The translations under genes were made by a program, and so were the position numbers. Shown here piece after piece: positions 3,095 through 28,909 of a DNA stretch of 37,753 nucleotides. How positions within the stretch are numbered: position 1 is the first letter of the stretch; the number at the start of each line of letters is the position of its first letter. The DNA comes from Actinomyces timonensis DSM 23838 (GTDB taxonomy: Bacteria > Actinomycetota > Actinomycetes > Actinomycetales > Actinomycetaceae). The notes beneath the pieces are model-generated. The model was not told the DNA's origin and ran no database searches. It saw nothing but the letters and a program-made list of their open reading frames with translations. The stretch covers positions 902,951-940,703 of the forward strand of contig NZ_JH806632.1 of NCBI RefSeq assembly GCF_000295095.1, read 5' to 3'.

Positions 3095-3507
3095 GGCGAC
3101 TTCGTGGCTGGATGCTGGGCCTGGCGGTCTTCCAGGGGCTGTCCACACTGGTGGGGATGGTCGAGCTCATCCTCGCCCCGCAGTGGTTCGCGCCGATGCT
3201 GGCGGGCACGGCCTTCGCCGAGCGGACAGGGCTGGCGGCGCTGCTGCTGGGAGTCGTCGTCGGCGGGGCGCAGTGGACCGCGGTGGCCGCGCACCTGCGG
3301 TGGCGCGCCTGGATGCCGGCGGCGCACACGGCGGCTGGCATGGTCATGCTCGGGTGGATCGCCGGTGAGTGCCTGGTCATCGACTCCTTCATGTGGACCC
3401 ACGCCCTGTGGGGAGGCATTGGGGCGCTCCAGGTGCTGGCAGTGGCCGTCCTGCTCGGCGCCTTCCGGCCGTGGGCGCCCGCAGACGTCGGAAGTGGCGA
3501 GGTTTGA
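3091..3507 (+). CDS. Small four-helix membrane protein, function unknown
   Basis: The protein has 138 residues and about four hydrophobic segments, near residues 7-29, 45-65, 75-98 and 105-126. I do not recognise a specific family. The size and layout resemble small DoxX-like or DUF4267-type membrane proteins. Its start overlaps the stop of the upstream TetR gene, so it is the likely target and partner of that regulator. The final codons (GSGEV and TGA) lie inside the left end of repeat copy B, whose GTTTGA supplies the stop. The original C terminus may therefore have been replaced. Confidence 0.75.
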   Translation: MRRLRGWMLGLAVFQGLSTLVGMVELILAPQWFAPMLAGTAFAERTGLAALLLGVVVGGAQWTAVAAHLRWRAWMPAAHTAAGMVMLGWIAGECLVIDSFMWTHALWGGIGALQVLAVAVLLGAFRPWAPADVGSGEV

Positions 3508-3624
3508 GGATTGCTCGGGCCACAGCGCCCCCTCGCGAGCCGCCCTGCGTCTTTCGCCCCTTCCTGACCTGCGCCAGCAGAACACGTGACGCCGCGTCAG
3601 GAAAAGGAATCCTCAAACCTGGCC
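3496..3624. repeat. 129-bp palindromic repeat, copy B
   Basis: It has the same length and orientation as copy A and the same ends, GGCGAGGTTTGAGGATT and AATCCTCAAACCTGGCC. In the right half TTCCTGAC (3560-3567) pairs perfectly with GTCAGGAA (3597-3604), forming an internal stem. Its left end provides the stop codon of the membrane-protein gene. Its right end stops 21 bases short of the 3' end of the convergent GH13 gene, so it could act as a transcriptional boundary between them. Confidence 0.85.
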
Positions 3625-3645
3625 ATTTTCCTGGCGAGCCCGGTC

Positions 3646-4947
3646 TCACCGAGGGGGCTCGACGACGAGCGGCGCCTCCCCGGGCGCGCTCACGACGGCG
3701 CGGGGCGCGGGAAGCAGGTCCAGTTCGACCCGCAGCCGCTCCCCCTGCTCGCCGACGGCGTCGTAGCACAGGCGCTCATTGGCCAGCTCAGCCACCTCGG
3801 TGCGCGCCCGCACGAGCCAGGGGTGGCGGCGCCGTATCCCGATGAGGTCCTGGTGGAGGCGGTGCATCCACTCCCCCAGGGTCGAGAGCCCAGCAGGAGT
3901 GTCGGGCAGCGCGGGCCGGACCTCGTCGTCGCCGCCGATCTCGTCGCGCTTGACACCGGTGAAGGCCTGCTCGTCGCCGTAGTAGATGGAGGGCACCCCG
4001 CCCACGGTCATGAGGAGGACGACGGCGAGCGCCGCCTTGCCCGGCCCCACCCGGCTGGCGATGCGGGTGACGTCGTGATTGCCGACGAAGGTGGCAGGAA
4101 GGAAGGAGTCGAGGAACTCGTTGTGGCGCCCCAGGCACCAGTCGAGCTCGAAGAAGTTGGCGTCGTTCAGCGAGCTCCAGATGGCCTTCCACAACTCGTA
4201 CTGGGTGAGGCTGTCCACCCCCGAGGCCTGGACGATCCCCGCGTAGTCGCCGTGGATGACCTCGGCCATGAACCAGGCCTCCGGGTGGCGCTCACGCACG
4301 GCGGGCAGCACGCGCGCCCAGAAGGCGGGCGGGACGGCGTAGGCGGCGTCGAGCCTCCAGGCGGTGGCGCCGCGGTCGAGCCAGTGGGTCATGACGTCGC
4401 CCACGAGCCGGGCGGTCTCGGGGCTGTCATGGTTGAGGAGGGGCAGGGAGCCGTGGCCCTCGAAGACGGCGTAGTCGCCGCCCGGCCCGATGGGCTCGGT
4501 GAATCGGAAGAGCTCGCGCTCGCTCCCCCCGGCCAGCGCCGCCTGGAAAAGGGGGTGGTCGTAGCCGACATGGTTGAACACGCCGTCGAGCATGAGGGCC
4601 AGGCCCCGCGCGCGGCAGGCCTCGGCGAGGCGGTCGAAGGCGGCGTCGTCCCCCAGGCGCGGGTCGATGGCGAAGTGGTCGGTGGTGTCGTAGCCGTGGG
4701 TGGCGGAGCGGAAGATCGGCCCGAGGGACAGGCCGTTGGCTCCGAGCTCGACGGCGTAGTCGAGCCAGGGCTCCAGGCGGTCGAGCCGTGCCGGGGCCCC
4801 CGGGGTCTGCGCGGCGGGCGCCTCCCCCACGGCGGGCCGGATCGGCGCACCAGTGGCGCCCAGGGGGTAGACCTGCCACCAGATCGCGTGGTCGACCCAT
4901 GCGGGCCCCCGCCTCGACGGGCTTACTCCAGCAGACTCAGGACTCAT
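3646..4947 (-). CDS. GH13 alpha-amylase-family glycosidase
   Basis: The protein has 433 residues and is a (beta/alpha)8 glycosidase with the four GH13 regions in order. These are DGVFNH (121-126), WRLDAAY with the nucleophile Asp200, FMAEVIHG with the acid/base Glu229, and FVGNHDVTR with the transition-state Asp292. It has no signal peptide, so it should be cytoplasmic and act on alpha-glucans or maltodextrins. The early motif WWQVYPLG fits trehalose-synthase or maltodextrin-glucosidase-like subgroups, but the exact specificity is unclear. The start at 4947 gives MSPESAG. The frame is open much further upstream without homology. No strong ribosome site precedes it. It is divergent from the membrane-anchored gene at 5174. 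Confidence 0.88.
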   Translation of the reverse strand: MSPESAGVSPSRRGPAWVDHAIWWQVYPLGATGAPIRPAVGEAPAAQTPGAPARLDRLEPWLDYAVELGANGLSLGPIFRSATHGYDTTDHFAIDPRLGDDAAFDRLAEACRARGLALMLDGVFNHVGYDHPLFQAALAGGSERELFRFTEPIGPGGDYAVFEGHGSLPLLNHDSPETARLVGDVMTHWLDRGATAWRLDAAYAVPPAFWARVLPAVRERHPEAWFMAEVIHGDYAGIVQASGVDSLTQYELWKAIWSSLNDANFFELDWCLGRHNEFLDSFLPATFVGNHDVTRIASRVGPGKAALAVVLLMTVGGVPSIYYGDEQAFTGVKRDEIGGDDEVRPALPDTPAGLSTLGEWMHRLHQDLIGIRRRHPWLVRARTEVAELANERLCYDAVGEQGERLRVELDLLPAPRAVVSAPGEAPLVVEPPR

Positions 4948-7347: not shown

Positions 7348-7800
7348 TCAGCGAGCCGGGCGCATCCACTCGGGGGTGGCGCCCGGGTCCCGGGGGAAGT
7401 GGGAGAGCTCGTCCGCGCAGTCCTTGGCGCTCACGGGCGGGTCGAGATCGGGCTTGCGGTCGTAGTCGACGTCGACGCTCAGGCGGTAGCCCGGCGCGGT
7501 CATGGTCAGATGGGCCCACGTCCATGTGCCGCCGCGGGGGTGGGCCATGGCCACGCGAAGCTGCACGGCCTCCTGGACGATCTCGCCGGGGACGACGTTG
7601 GCCTGCTGGGCGCCGTTGATGACCGCGGTGGTCTGGACGCTGGCGCGCAGGCCGACGGCCTCGATCTCAATGGCGGCCTCAGTGGCACCGACCTGCTCCA
7701 TGAAGGCGGCGAGGTTGCCCTGGAGGCTTCCGATCGCCTGTGACTGGGCCTCAAGGCCGCCGCCCATGGGCCCCATGCCGCCCATCATGTCCATTCCCAT
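7348..7800 (-). CDS. Unrecognised 150-residue protein, possibly immunity-like
   Basis: The protein has a Met/Gly-rich N terminus (MGMDMMGGMGPMGGG), a predicted helix, a beta-rich middle (EAAIEIEAVGLRASVQTTAVI) and an acidic end reading VDVDYDRKPDLDPP, then ELSHFPRDPGATPEWMRP. The end loosely resembles the YezG/DUF600 immunity fold (acidic DYD, ELxxFPR, PxWM). That is a weak match by eye. The Met-rich start offers several start codons. I took 7800, which has GGAGA upstream. No toxin gene is adjacent, which argues against a simple immunity role. The DUF350 gene follows it. Confidence 0.65.
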   Translation of the reverse strand: MGMDMMGGMGPMGGGLEAQSQAIGSLQGNLAAFMEQVGATEAAIEIEAVGLRASVQTTAVINGAQQANVVPGEIVQEAVQLRVAMAHPRGGTWTWAHLTMTAPGYRLSVDVDYDRKPDLDPPVSAKDCADELSHFPRDPGATPEWMRPAR

Positions 7801-8190
7801 GCTCTGTCTCCATTCGTGGGTGCCGCGGGTTCAGCGCTGATGCTCGTCTACGGTAACCGCATTGACTCGGGGCAGCCAGAGGCGGTCGCTGCTTCTCCTC
7901 AGCCCCAGGGCAACGCTCCGGCCTGGCACTACGCGATAGGACGACCGGTCATCGAGAGGTAGACGCCGGTGGTCATGAGACTGGCCACCGGCATGAGAAC
8001 GAGCAGGAGCCTCCATGGGGCCGGTCGCCTTGCGCACCCCTATGGCTCACCCCACGAGGTCGCGGCGGCGCAGATGTCGCACCGAGTGACGCTATGCCCT
8101 TATGATGGAGTCAATCGCCCCCCGGTCAGGCCTCTCCATCTGCGACGCATACTAGGCCGGGGCCTTATCTCTTCTAGTCGAAGGCGCGTC
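7801..8190. other. 390-bp region without a gene, left flank of the Abi insertion
   Basis: No convincing coding frame is visible on either strand. It holds the upstream region of the gene at 7348-7800 and, at 8046-8073, the left copy of the 28-bp direct repeat that bounds the Abi gene. From 8074 to 8190 the sequence is less GC-rich than its surroundings and would contain the Abi promoter. No clear promoter hexamers stand out. Confidence 0.5.
8046..8073. repeat. Left 28-bp direct repeat flanking the Abi gene
   Basis: The sequence is identical over all 28 bases to 9133-9160, and begins CTCACCCCACGAGGTC. At the right-hand site it is the end of the ABC permease gene, encoding LRRRDLVG and the stop on the minus strand. 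Here it belongs to no gene. Identity stops sharply at both ends. The two copies are 1,087 bp apart and enclose only the Abi gene, as expected of an attachment-site or target duplication. Confidence 0.85.
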
Positions 8191-9108
8191 GTGAAGCTCC
8201 TCCTGACCTACGAGCAGCAAACTGATCTCCTCCGGCAACGGGGCCTGCGAGTCGAGGACGAGCCCGCATGCGTCGAGTTCCTCAGCCAGGTCGGCTACTA
8301 CCGGCTGTCCGGCTACTTCCGGTACTGGCAGAAGGACCCGGCCTACGGCGACAACACCTTCGTCGATGGCGCAGACTTCGGCGTGATCCGCGACCTGTAC
8401 CTTGCCGAGGAGCGCCTCGCCGTCGAGTGCATGCGCTCGCTGCGGCAGGTGGAAGTCATGCTCCGCGTCCGCTTCTCCCATGCCTATGCCAAGAACGTGG
8501 CTGTTCAAGGTGGCCTGAGCAGTGGCATGGGCTTGACCGCCCCAACGTCCGAGACCCACACACCGGCCCAGGAGTACGTGCGGCGCGACCTCGATCAGAG
8601 CAAGGAGGCCTTCATTGGCCGCAGCCGCATGGAGGCGGGCAAAGGCGCATTCACAGACAACCGCTACGCCGATCTCTACGCCTGGGCCGCAGTGGAGGTG
8701 CTCTCCGTCGGGACCCTGTCCCGGTGCATCGCCGCCTCCCGGGACAGTGGGGTTCTCGGAGAGCTCGCCCAGGCACTTGGCATCGAGCAGGCGACCTTCG
8801 CGAGCAAGGTGAAGTCCCTCGTCTACCTTCGGAACCGGATCGCCCATCACGCCAAGATCTGGAACCACTCAGTTATTGATGCGCCGGGACTCGGCCGCGC
8901 GCGTGGCCGGATCAAGAAACGTCATGGAGGCTTCGACGATCGTTCGATCTATGGAGTCCTCGCCGTGCTCGACCAGCTCCTCCTCAAGTCGGGCCTGCAT
9001 GAAGGCTGGCTGGATGAGGTCGTCGATCCTCTGCTCGCCGAGAATCCACTCCTGGATCGGGGCATCCGCCATCCACGCAGATATGGAGAAGCCGATCTCA
9101 GCGCATGA
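8191..9108 (+). CDS. Abi-family (AbiD/AbiF-like) abortive infection protein
   Basis: The protein has 305 residues and belongs to the Abi_2 family (PF07751). The N-terminal VGYYRLSGYFRYW (residues 34-46) is the family hallmark. The C-terminal half has LRNRIAHHAKIWN, in which Arg214 and His219 form the R-x4-6-H motif of HEPN ribonucleases. Known members abort phage infection, probably by cleaving RNA. I chose GTG at 8191 because VKLLLTYEQQTDLL matches the usual start. The ORF extends upstream without homology and through the direct repeat. Codon use is less GC-biased than in the neighbours (for example TTATTGAT near 8873), which suggests transfer. It stands alone between identical 28-bp repeats and has no integrase nearby. 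Confidence 0.88.
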   Translation: MKLLLTYEQQTDLLRQRGLRVEDEPACVEFLSQVGYYRLSGYFRYWQKDPAYGDNTFVDGADFGVIRDLYLAEERLAVECMRSLRQVEVMLRVRFSHAYAKNVAVQGGLSSGMGLTAPTSETHTPAQEYVRRDLDQSKEAFIGRSRMEAGKGAFTDNRYADLYAWAAVEVLSVGTLSRCIAASRDSGVLGELAQALGIEQATFASKVKSLVYLRNRIAHHAKIWNHSVIDAPGLGRARGRIKKRHGGFDDRSIYGVLAVLDQLLLKSGLHEGWLDEVVDPLLAENPLLDRGIRHPRRYGEADLSA

Positions 9109-9132
9109 TCGGCTACGCGAAGACGAATTCGC

Positions 9133-9160
9133 CTCACCCCACGAGGTCGCGGCGGCGCAG
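9133..9160. repeat. Right 28-bp direct repeat, in the permease 3' end
   Basis: It is identical to 8046-8073. It covers the last eight codons and the stop codon of the permease gene on the minus strand (stop at 9134-9136). An insertion here would leave the permease protein intact, as integrating elements that target gene 3' ends usually do. Confidence 0.85.
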
Positions 9161-10816
9161 GGCGGTGGCCGCCAGGGCGAGGAGCAGGCCGGTCAGCACG
9201 AGGCACACGCCCGGGCCGATCCAGGCATGCGACGGCCCGAGGATGGAAGTCCATGCCTCTGCGGCGCCTCCCGCGCGCCCGGCCCGCGCCGTCGGGAGCG
9301 ACGGCAGGTGCGTCAAGGGCGAAAGGTCGAGCAGCCACTGAGGGGCCCGGAGGGCCTGCCCCAGCGTCGTCACGCAAACCGCGCCGAGGAGCAATCCCCA
9401 GCCCACGATCCGGCCCGCCCGGGGAACGAGCGCCTGCGCGGCCAGCGTGAGCGCGCCGAGCAGTAGTGCGGCGGGGAGCGTCGCAGCGCATCCCACGGTG
9501 ATGCTCGCCGCGAGCGCCCAGGGCTGGGCCGCCGCCTCGCTCCCCTGGTTGGCGAGCGGCGCGATCGCGGACGTCATCAGGCCGACGGCGATCGCCACCG
9601 CCGTCGCGCCCACCCCCGCCGCCATGACCGCGGCGCGGCCCATGAGGAACCGCTCCCGGGGGATCGGCTCGGCGAGGAGGACGGCAGCGCGGCCCGAGCC
9701 CTCCTCCCCCGCCGTGGCCGAGGCCAGCGCGACGGCGCAGGCCGCCAGGACGAGCCCGCCGTAGGTGACGATGAGCGCCAGATAGGTCTGCACCGTCAGC
9801 TGCCCGCCGACGAAGGCCTTCAGCGCCGGGTTGTCCTCGAACATGGCGGCCAGGCTCGACTCGACCTGTGAGGCGAACACCCCGTAGACGACGGCGAAGA
9901 CGAGCCCGCCCACGCCCCACCAGCCGCGCGTCGCCGCGGACGTGCGCAGGGCTAGCGCGATCGCGCCCCGCGGCCCCGGTCGTCGGGCACCCCGGGAGGC
10001 GGGCAGGGTCACCAGCCCCTCCCCCAGCTCGCGGCGCGCGTGGAGGGCGCAGCCCAGGGCGCACAGCGCGGCGGCTCCAGCGGCGAGCAGGAGGAGCGGC
10101 GCCCACCGCAGCCCGGCCCAGGGGCGCGCCTGCTGGACGAGGCCGATCGGCGTCGTCCAGGACAGCCAGTCGGCGCCCGCGGTGGAGTCCCCGAGCCCGC
10201 GCAGCTGGTACCAGGCGACGACAAGGAGGGTGCCCATTCCGCGCGCGGCCCGGGCGGAGCCCGCGAGCGCGCCGAGCACCAGCCCGCCGCCAGCGCCCGC
10301 GGCGGCGCACAGCGCCAGGCCGAGCCCGGCGGCGAGCGCGTCGAGGGGCGCCAGGCCGACGGCGACGGTGATCGCGCAGAAGGCCACGGCCATGAGGGAG
10401 CCGGTCAGCATGACGGAGGCCAGGGCGGCGCGCGTCGCCTGGGAGCGGCCCACGGGCGCGGCGCGCAGGAGCTCGCCGGGACCGGTCTCCTCGTCGGCCC
10501 GGGTGCGGGCGATGGACATGAGGAGCCCGGCGAGGACGGCGATGAGGGCGAGGTAGCCGAGCACCTCGGTGGCGAGGATGGCACCGAGGGAGGGATCGGC
10601 GTCGTCGAGTCCGTAGCCGGGGCCGGTGAACATGGCGGCCATTGGGCTGGAGAAGGCGGTGGCGAAGGCCCTGCGCTCGGCGGCGGTGTCGTAGATGCCG
10701 GTCAGCGCGATCGCTGAGTAGGCGGCCAGGAGCGCGATGCCAGCGGTCCAGCCGATCGCGGGGCGGCGGTCGCGGCGCAGGGTGAGGCGGGTCAGCGGCG
10801 AGATCACTCGTGCCAT
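9134..10816 (-). CDS. ABC-2 type exporter permease
   Basis: The protein has 560 residues and about twelve hydrophobic segments in two similar halves of six, with a charged loop near residues 260-290. The pattern matches large ABC-2 permeases annotated as exporters of polyketide-type antibiotics, which carry both membrane halves in one chain. Each half has a segment containing Glu-Glu (TRADEETGPGELLRAAP and ATAGEEGSGRAAVLLAEP), a repeated cytoplasmic motif of this family. The ATP-binding gene lies three bases upstream, so the two form a single transporter. The TetR gene in front suggests drug or toxin export. The end of the gene coincides with the 28-bp repeat next to the Abi gene. Confidence 0.88.
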   Translation of the reverse strand: MARVISPLTRLTLRRDRRPAIGWTAGIALLAAYSAIALTGIYDTAAERRAFATAFSSPMAAMFTGPGYGLDDADPSLGAILATEVLGYLALIAVLAGLLMSIARTRADEETGPGELLRAAPVGRSQATRAALASVMLTGSLMAVAFCAITVAVGLAPLDALAAGLGLALCAAAGAGGGLVLGALAGSARAARGMGTLLVVAWYQLRGLGDSTAGADWLSWTTPIGLVQQARPWAGLRWAPLLLLAAGAAALCALGCALHARRELGEGLVTLPASRGARRPGPRGAIALALRTSAATRGWWGVGGLVFAVVYGVFASQVESSLAAMFEDNPALKAFVGGQLTVQTYLALIVTYGGLVLAACAVALASATAGEEGSGRAAVLLAEPIPRERFLMGRAAVMAAGVGATAVAIAVGLMTSAIAPLANQGSEAAAQPWALAASITVGCAATLPAALLLGALTLAAQALVPRAGRIVGWGLLLGAVCVTTLGQALRAPQWLLDLSPLTHLPSLPTARAGRAGGAAEAWTSILGPSHAWIGPGVCLVLTGLLLALAATALRRRDLVG

Positions 10817-10819
10817 CGC

Positions 10820-11764
10820 TCAGCCCACCTTGCCGCCGGCGGAGGGGGCGCCCTCGGAGGAGGAGTAGTGGTGGAGGAAGATCTCCTCCAGGCTCGGCGG
10901 GGCGGCGGTGATCGAGCGCAGCCCGAGCGCCGCCAGGCGCTCCATGACGGCGCCCACCTGGTCGGCGTCGGCAGTCAGGGTGATCTGCCAGACGCCGTCG
11001 GCGCAGGAGGCCCTCAGGTCGTGGACCCCGGGCGCGCCGGCCAGATCGGGCTCCCGCTCGACGACGGCGCTGATGCGGGAGCGGGCGAGGGCGCGGATGC
11101 GCTCCAGGCTCCCGGACTCGACGGCGCGGCCCGCGCGGATGATGGTGACCGAGTCGGCCAGGCTCTCCACCTCGGACAGGATGTGGCTGGAGAGCAGGAC
11201 GGCGCTACCCCGCCCGGCGGCCTCGGCGACGCATTGGCGGAAGACCTCCTCCATGAGGGGGTCGAGGCCGGAGGTCGGCTCGTCGAGGATGAGGAGGTCG
11301 ACGTCGGTCTCCAGGGCGGCGATGAGGGCGACCTTCTGCCGGTTGCCCTTGGAGTAGGCGCGGACCCTCTTGGTGGGGTCGAGGTCGAAGCGCTCGATGA
11401 GCTCGGCGCGGCGAGCCTCGCTGGGCCTGCGGGAGCGCAGGGAGGCGAGGGCGTCGAGGGTCTGCCCGCCGGTGAGGCCCGGCCAGAGGGCGACGTCGCC
11501 CGGCACATAGGCCAGGCGCTCGTGCTCGGCGACGGCGCCCCAGGGGTCGGCGCCGAAGAGGCGGGCGGTGCCGCCGTCGGCGCGGAGCATCCCGAGCAGG
11601 ACGCGCAGGGTGGTGGACTTGCCGGCGCCGTTGGGGCCGAGGAATCCGAGGATCTGGCCGGGCGCGACGGCGAGGTCCAGGCCGTCGAGGGCCCGGGTGG
11701 CGCGTGGGCCCCGCCCGAAGGTCTTGGTCAGTCCGATGGTCTCGACAACGGGTGCGGTGGTCAT
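10820..11764 (-). CDS. ABC transporter ATP-binding protein
   Basis: The protein has 314 residues. Walker A is GPNGAGKST (43-51), the signature is YSKGNRQK, Walker B is LLILDEPTSGLDPL, and the switch His is in SSHILSE. The signature begins SKG rather than SGG, as is usual in ABC-2 drug-export ATPases (DrrA/CcmA type). A C-terminal extension of about 90 residues resembles the DrrA regulatory tail. Its start overlaps the stop of the TetR gene by four bases, and it is followed after three bases by the permease. The operon order is therefore regulator, ATPase, permease. Confidence 0.92.
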   Translation of the reverse strand: MTTAPVVETIGLTKTFGRGPRATRALDGLDLAVAPGQILGFLGPNGAGKSTTLRVLLGMLRADGGTARLFGADPWGAVAEHERLAYVPGDVALWPGLTGGQTLDALASLRSRRPSEARRAELIERFDLDPTKRVRAYSKGNRQKVALIAALETDVDLLILDEPTSGLDPLMEEVFRQCVAEAAGRGSAVLLSSHILSEVESLADSVTIIRAGRAVESGSLERIRALARSRISAVVEREPDLAGAPGVHDLRASCADGVWQITLTADADQVGAVMERLAALGLRSITAAPPSLEEIFLHHYSSSEGAPSAGGKVG

Positions 11765-28439: not shown

Positions 28440-28777
28440 GCCGAACTCAGCGCGAATGCCTCCTCGAGGCGCTCATCCATCTTGATCAAGTCACGCGATA
28501 CGCCGAGCGCGACCTTACCGACGACGCCATCCGAGATGCCATCGCCTTGCGCCTCGCAGCGGCGATCGATTCCCTCTCACGGCTCCCCCAGGACGATCTC
28601 ACGGGGATGTTCGGCGACGTCTGGTACGACATCAAGGCGACGCGCAATCGCATCGTCCACGGCTATCTCAGCGTCAGCAGCGAGATCATCGACGCGACAG
28701 TCGCGGAGGATCTGCCTGAGCTGAGGAGCATCATCGAGGACAGATTGGCCGCGCGCGACGAAAATGGCCAGGTTTGA
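28436..28777 (+). CDS. hepT: HepT-like HEPN-domain ribonuclease toxin (DUF86)
   Basis: The protein has 113 residues. The HEPN active-site motif is WYDIKATRNRIVHGYL, with Arg70, His75 and the downstream Tyr77 that MntA-type partners modify. Such toxins cut RNA. GTG 28436 overlaps the antitoxin stop. The last codons (Asn-Gly-Gln-Val-stop) come from the left end of the 129-bp repeat copy C, whose GTTTGA gives the stop. The native C terminus may therefore have been changed slightly. The active site is intact. Confidence 0.9.
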   Translation: MSRTQRECLLEALIHLDQVTRYAERDLTDDAIRDAIALRLAAAIDSLSRLPQDDLTGMFGDVWYDIKATRNRIVHGYLSVSSEIIDATVAEDLPELRSIIEDRLAARDENGQV

Positions 28778-28894
28778 GGATTCCTTTTTCTGACGCGACG
28801 TTAGATCATCTATCGTCGCAGGTCAGAAGCTTGCGGGCTCTCGCGCACTAGGGGCATCAGCCCTCAGAGGCCCGAGCAATCCTCAAACCTGGCC
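28766..28894. repeat. 129-bp palindromic repeat, copy C (inverted orientation)
   Basis: It has the same length as copies A and B but is turned around. GGATTCC and the AGAAAAAGG-type block (here CCTTTTTCTGACGCGACG) are at the left, and GGCCCGAGCAATCC is at the right. The ends GGCCAGGTTTGAGGATT and AATCCTCAAACCTGGCC are perfect inverted repeats. The variable centre differs from A and B. On the minus strand the internal stem TTCTGAC...GTCAGAA is kept, with GCGACG pairing CGTCGC inside it. It lies between hepT and asd, which converge. Confidence 0.88.
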
Positions 28895-28909
28895 ATTTCG
28901 GCGGGTGAT

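Follow-up and report, generated by a model that had tools for sequence, protein, structure and literature searches.

An abiF-like RNA and Abi_2 gene between two copies of a permease gene end in Actinomyces timonensis, probably inserted with target duplication

Our analysis suggests that a small cassette, consisting of an abiF-like RNA and an Abi_2/HEPN gene, probably entered the chromosome of Actinomyces timonensis DSM 23838 by an insertion that duplicated a long stretch of target DNA. In the window (the whole 37,753-nt stretch of DNA that was analyzed), the RNA and the gene lie between two exact direct repeats, one of which forms the 3' end of an ABC-2-type permease gene; the same pattern recurs around related Abi_2 genes and, at one other Abi locus, an empty site with the native flanks of the occupied one is present in relatives. 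From the latter locus, an adh site, we infer that the window cassette was inserted in the same way, and from its family that it serves in defense. Insertion at the gene end in the window is thus well supported by analogy.

The unit at the permease 3' end

The 28-mer CTCACCCCACGAGGTCGCGGCGGCGCAG occurs in two exact copies with a start-to-start distance of 1,087 bp (Table 1), as the original prediction had stated, and is the sole exact direct repeat of at least 28 bp in the whole window; in 20 shuffles of the repeat flanks, the longest word common to both was 13 bp. The right copy, made up of one base, the stop codon and the final eight codons (LRRRDLVG*), completes the minus-strand permease gene, which supports the proposal that an insertion at a 3' end preserved the gene. 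Ungapped identity between the copies stops at 28 bp on both sides, and comparison of the left-copy flank with the tested permease surroundings revealed no significant similarity beyond that length. The difference in base composition noted earlier also holds: the GC content is 0.634 for positions 8074-9132 and 0.731 for the window, and the 1,059-bp stretch starting at 8101 is the GC minimum among 367 sampled. The unit is minimal and lacks an integrase, as had been claimed: the repeats enclose the RNA and the Abi gene and no recombinase, and no PF00589 match in the genome lies closer than about 750 kb on this contig. The statement that nothing but the Abi gene lies between the repeats has to be amended, however, as it missed the abiF-like RNA.

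Table 1. Features at and around the repeat-flanked unit (positions in the window)
Feature	Position	Strand	Basis or remark
geneX (neighboring membrane-protein gene), 3' remnant of 76 bp	7929..8004	-	88% identity to L066:2576-2651; full length in G006, G016 and G008
41-bp stretch between geneX remnant and left repeat	8005..8045		not significantly similar to the DNA downstream of the permease in G006 or G016
Left (distal) repeat copy, copy of the permease 3' end	8046..8073		exact repeat; the window's sole 28-mer direct repeat; no wider similarity
Putative -10 box (TATGAT) of the RNA	8101..8106	+	read by eye; no convincing -35 element
abiF-like structured RNA: outer stem, conserved AGGCCUC loop, CCUUAUCUC at the end	8114..8171	+	covariance model, covariation
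Abi_2 (AbiD/F-type) protein, 305 aa, GTG start, R214-x4-H219 (HEPN-type RNase motif)	8191..9108	+	Pfam, PADLOC, alignment, PDB
Right repeat copy (1 base, stop and last 8 permease codons)	9133..9160		same 28-mer at the G006 permease end
ABC-2-type permease, target gene, intact	9134..10816	-	Pfam scores below cut-off; G006 orthologue 84% identical
ABC transporter ATPase, probable permease partner	10820..11764	-	domain search

Upstream of Abi homologues lies a common element, CCCCGG..AGGCCUCU...GGCCGGGG. A covariance model built from 18 relatives, with the window left out, hits the window at the RNA position given in Table 1 with 49.6 bits (E 3.8e-11), its sole match in 125,643 bases. Across 20 aligned RNA copies (19 distinct), the named pairs are standard in 97.6% of cells, and in three pairs both sides have changed; covariation scores 0.171, as against 0.097 in shuffles and no more than 0.064 when slid. 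The 58-nt window RNA taken by itself does not fold above shuffles (z -0.43), nor does a long stem spanning 8040-8195 as a single fold, and the assignment of the window RNA therefore rests on homology and covariation; the RNAs of relatives gave z of -2.5 to -4.1 in four of five cases and -1.8 in the fifth. An Rfam scan of the window region did not match RF03085, the abiF family, up to an E of 10, whereas three of the 15 related loci scanned passed RF03085, and the same three were matched weakly by our own model (E 0.017-0.031). On homology, we take the unit to be a divergent pair of abiF-type RNA and Abi_2 protein.

Other observations concern the placement of the RNA. In L223 (G055), a second abiF-like copy lies downstream of the Abi gene (2498-2550 and 3817-3869, in the Abi orientation), and an ORF that appears IS-like by eye splits the RNA from the Abi gene in L278 (G161) and in L034/L321 (G030). 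The left repeat copy was considered as a part of the RNA or as an antisense guide and set aside, as the RNA model begins 3' of that copy.

The protein-coding ORF of the unit matches Abi_2 (PF07751) with an E of 9e-28 and 98.2 bits (cut-off 25.6), PADLOC matches it to AbiD (E 7e-35), and PDB entry 8vz6, an "Abi family protein", is related to it (E 2.6e-14). Within the HEPN motif RNRIAH, R214 and H219 are invariant in eight aligned proteins, the window protein included. Its nearest relative in the genus, in G030, is 67% identical, has a stop within the match and lies beside another gene at another locus; the RNA there is about 1.2 kb away, and no long flanking repeat was found, the best being 19/21. 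Abi relatives also occur in 204 plasmid records, all below 60% identity, and in nine phage records.

A close permease (84% identical) was found in one of 49 genus genomes, G006, whose permease end carries the same 28-mer; its 22-base core is listed without mismatch in G000 and G006 only. In G006, several ORFs, one of them with an Endonuclea_NS_2 domain, form other cargo at the permease end, and the core recurs (21/22 alike) beside the neighboring gene, geneX. The order is similar in G016, which also has other cargo there and whose left copy, read by eye, is weaker, and G008 has geneX and a core-like word without a permease match. The original prediction had proposed looking at this permease end for empty sites or other cargo: other cargo is present between diverged core copies, while no empty permease site was found among the 49 genomes, and the insertion in the window is therefore an inferred case. 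In the window itself, the reduction of geneX to a 76-bp remnant indicates that the left flank has been rearranged, by deletion or otherwise, and the 28 bp may accordingly be what is left of a longer duplication.

Further features were seen in these neighborhoods. The G006 cargo (L066:3317-6940; G006:C6, ~41.3-44.9 kb) consists of the Endonuclea_NS_2 ORF and further ORFs that look immunity-like, one of which was tested and had no Pfam match; similar stretches are present in G008 and G016, and partly inverted copies lie elsewhere in the contig. In the window, a small minus-strand ORF at 7348-7800 without a Pfam match resembles by eye the N-terminal part of geneX, in the frame of G008 and G016. 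A TetR gene and a small ORF lie between two copies of a separate, ~145-bp repeat (2160-2303 and 3490-3633) that has inverted ends; the copies are 83% alike and identical over 27 bp at one end, and a partial third copy occurs near 28751-28899 on the minus strand; G006 aligns with one copy at the same place and has more copies elsewhere. This repeat is MITE-like and is possibly another insertion between repeats.

Direct repeats around related cassettes

The adh site provides the empty-site comparison. We read 10 of 21 adh loci at the sequence level, and five of these 10 relatives (L256, L258, L259, L260 and L264) have the empty site, in which adh, a terminator and tRNA-Gly follow one another (tRNAs, where called, by ARAGORN). 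In G161, two 101-bp copies of the adh end plus terminator enclose a cassette, inside which there is an IS-like ORF (by eye), and the flanks are native: adh is to the left and tRNA-Gly to the right, matching the empty site. The two copies are 99/101 identical to each other, compared with 89/101 to the single copy of G154 and about 93% to the best of the five empty-site relatives; this greater likeness to each other than to the relatives' single copies makes the recipient's own DNA their most likely source. An older and further rearranged form of this insertion seems to be present in G142 and G146. The empty site that the original prediction called for is thus found at another Abi locus and not at the permease itself. 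The adh-tRNA-Gly interval is an apparent hot spot, with further inserts in L279 (G162; 6.8 kb, 39-bp duplications) and L280 (G147; 9.2 kb, 71-bp duplication).

An exact-repeat scan of 25 Abi loci revealed words of at least 21 bp at three (the window, G037 and G047) and at most 15 bp at the other loci and in shuffles. Alignment of the 450-bp flanks of 108 Abi_2 units from the family gave a score of at least 22 in 13 units, the next being 15. After removal of named-record duplicates (L063-L065), further duplicates (L055, L056, L189, L211 and L252) and the short L198, with L053 and L243 having yielded no unit, 12 of 100 distinct units scored at least 20. The repeats at L185, L221 and L223 were rejected as insertions, being a local repeat family, terminator-like palindromes and a duplicated RNA. 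Direct repeats not otherwise explained thus remain at nine of the 100 distinct units, and the other 91 lack such a repeat within 450 bp; the nine represent eight sites, because L191 and L193 are probably one event. G161 is not among the nine, because its internal insert pushes one copy beyond the 450-bp flanks.

Control ORFs, which were mostly neighboring genes and not matched for accessory status, reached a score of at least 20 in four of 646 cases (Fisher p 5e-6 against the nine units and 2e-8 against the twelve). They came from 650 unique ORFs, of which four matching entries were Abi loci themselves and were left out. Of the four control matches, two were read as lying beside immunity-like paralogues, one as a terminator-like repeat and one as a 21-bp word.

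The repeat-flanked units measure ~1.1-1.4 kb at the eight sites, and their repeats vary in length and fidelity: 21 bp exact (24/25) downstream of a gene read as clpC in G037, where the Abi frame is broken; 23 bp exact (30/33) towards the 3' end of an alkD-like gene in G047, 54 bp inside the gene; 85/101 in G038; 99/100 in G088, where the repeat begins one base past the stop, like that in the window; 50/50 in G169, spanning the last codons and the stop; 27/28 in G149; and, in the adh clade, 63/75 in G146 and 66/78 in G142. In G047, 54 bp of alkD should accompany the left copy but are missing there; a deletion would account for this. The target's stop codon lies inside the repeat at four of the eight sites (the window, G088, G169 and adh), and the exact core in G037, G038 and G149 lies at most about 170 bp downstream of a gene end; the positional tendency is an apparent one, as gene ends are common. 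The target genes themselves vary, including those for a Zn-ADH, a ROK regulator, a type ISP enzyme, DNA alkylation repair and PhzF.

Fic loci present the same picture. Flanking repeats were found in four of the best-scoring 30: 107 bp exact, ~121 bp, a displaced gene 3' end of 50 bp, and a 49-bp imperfect repeat, the first three from L297, L298 and L319. The process is therefore not Abi-specific; the rates for Fic and Abi do not differ (p 0.5).

Other routes to the same arrangement

The original prediction raised a different possibility: the 28-mer would be the attachment core of a site-specific integrase encoded by another element, which would have moved the cassette in trans. Such a route would produce the same final topology; gene-restoring insertion at a gene end is typical of integrases, and the 6.8-kb insert at the adh site of G162 contains ORFs that look by eye like serine recombinases. 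The arrangement also recalls CIMEs, in which integrase-less cargo lies between attL and attR sites whose core is common with that of an ICE; the unit described here likewise has its cargo between direct repeats and no integrase. Unlike CIMEs, however, each site here has its own unrelated core: across seven sites, with core lengths of 21-101 bp and no common motif, pairwise comparison gave a single word above the 95% shuffle level, an 8-mer common to G088 and G149, which argues against one integrase acting in trans and led us to reject a single site-specific recombinase. The proposed search for an integrase with a matching attachment site was also negative: an exact scan of viral contigs with the 22-mer core gave no match, the window genome has three PF00589 matches (either some 750 kb from the unit or on a different contig), and a search confined to this tyrosine-type family found none within about 80 kb of repeat-flanked cassettes on the same contig in 12 genomes, some of them drafts. 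As Fic genes also show the pattern, we consider movement by an integrase in trans rather unlikely; the pattern fits a long, variable target duplication better.

An exchange of cargo at a pre-existing site is likewise unlikely. The permease end would have carried a repeat-flanked, toxin/immunity-like cluster of the kind now present in G006, and recombination at the repeats would have put the Abi cassette in its place. The second core copy beside geneX in G006, with the Endonuclea_NS_2 ORF and other genes in between, and the geneX remnant adjoining the left repeat in the window are both what such an exchange would leave. The two window copies, however, are 28/28 alike, past the 22-bp core of G006, and the window left flank is unlike the flank of the left repeat in G006 (score 6, shuffle mean 8).

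It is quite improbable that the unit is the remainder of a prophage or island that once occupied the permease end and was deleted down to the Abi gene between attL and attR. Some AbiF/Abi_2 genes do reside in prophages (PMC12373285), and the left flank of the window has been rearranged, yet eight sites would each have had to shrink to a unit of this size, and the window repeats enclose the RNA and the Abi gene only. Lastly, an origin of the upstream 28-mer as the leftover of a decayed, duplicated permease gene is hardly credible: the repeat is permease coding sequence, but identity between the copies ends on either side exactly at 28 bp, and neither the wider permease similarity expected at the upstream copy nor any likeness of the left flank to relatives' permease downstream DNA was seen.

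Proposed mechanism and known systems

In the insertion with target duplication that we favor, 28 bp of the recipient's own DNA, including the permease stop codon, would have been duplicated as the cassette entered, so that the cassette came to lie between the two copies and the permease kept its end; the left flank would have been trimmed, then or simultaneously, by deletion of most of geneX. The repeats are unlike the recognition sites of one enzyme, and the cassette carries no recombinase; the mover was probably a break-and-join process of the host or of a co-resident element. Judging from its family, the RNA probably restrains the Abi_2/HEPN ribonuclease as in a type III toxin-antitoxin system, and phage infection would release the ribonuclease from the RNA. 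A far broader proposal is doubtful at present, albeit worth stating: that toxin/defense cassettes (abiF-type RNA with Abi_2; Fic) form a broad, recombinase-free mobile class in Actinomyces and relatives, which duplicates tens to about 100 target bases, favors gene 3' ends and terminators, and moves by a host process not yet described. If that were true, single-gene immunity could be transferred without a phage, plasmid or integrase of its own.

How single defense genes spread when they are not on a phage, plasmid or transposon is, in our judgment, poorly understood. A clean empty-site comparison and a family-wide count now place Abi_2 and Fic genes between duplicated target DNA and define junctions for work on the mechanism. 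Among the matches listed in the open-licence literature, we recognized no report of Abi genes with target duplication. The window unit combines two known kinds of phenomenon: it is an abiF-type system and a probable case of insertion with target duplication.

The closest precedent for the insertion is that of restriction-modification (RM) genes in Helicobacter pylori, which are inserted with long target duplications (Nobusato et al. 2000, as summarized in PMC3874152 and PMC1643837). PMC3874152 describes these duplications as long and variable, of the order of 100 bp; according to the accounts in PMC3874152, PMC1643837 and PMC3031569, rearrangements accompany the movement of RM units. As in those summaries, a defense- or addiction-type unit lies here between direct repeats of variable length copied from the target; the repeats run from 21 to ~120 bp, are exact or imperfect, and include the stop codon at half of the Abi sites. 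In contrast to the RM insertions so summarized, the cargo is an RNA-regulated Abi_2 (and Fic) in relatives of Actinomyces, which extends the Helicobacter observation to an RNA-regulated Abi system in another bacterial group.

For the cargo, the closest relative is the AbiFCd system of Clostridioides difficile, in which, according to PMC12373285, the RNA RCd22 binds the toxic protein and neutralizes it; the same paper places AbiF/Abi_2 in some prophages, from an analysis of 288 prophages in 2,600 genomes. The window unit resembles AbiFCd/RCd22, as described there, in having an R-x4-H Abi_2 protein with a structured RNA directly upstream on the same strand. It differs in having one RNA motif rather than two in tandem, the window containing a single match, and in not matching RF03085; and whereas AbiFCd/RCd22 is described as part of a prophage lysis module, the window unit is chromosomal and stands alone.
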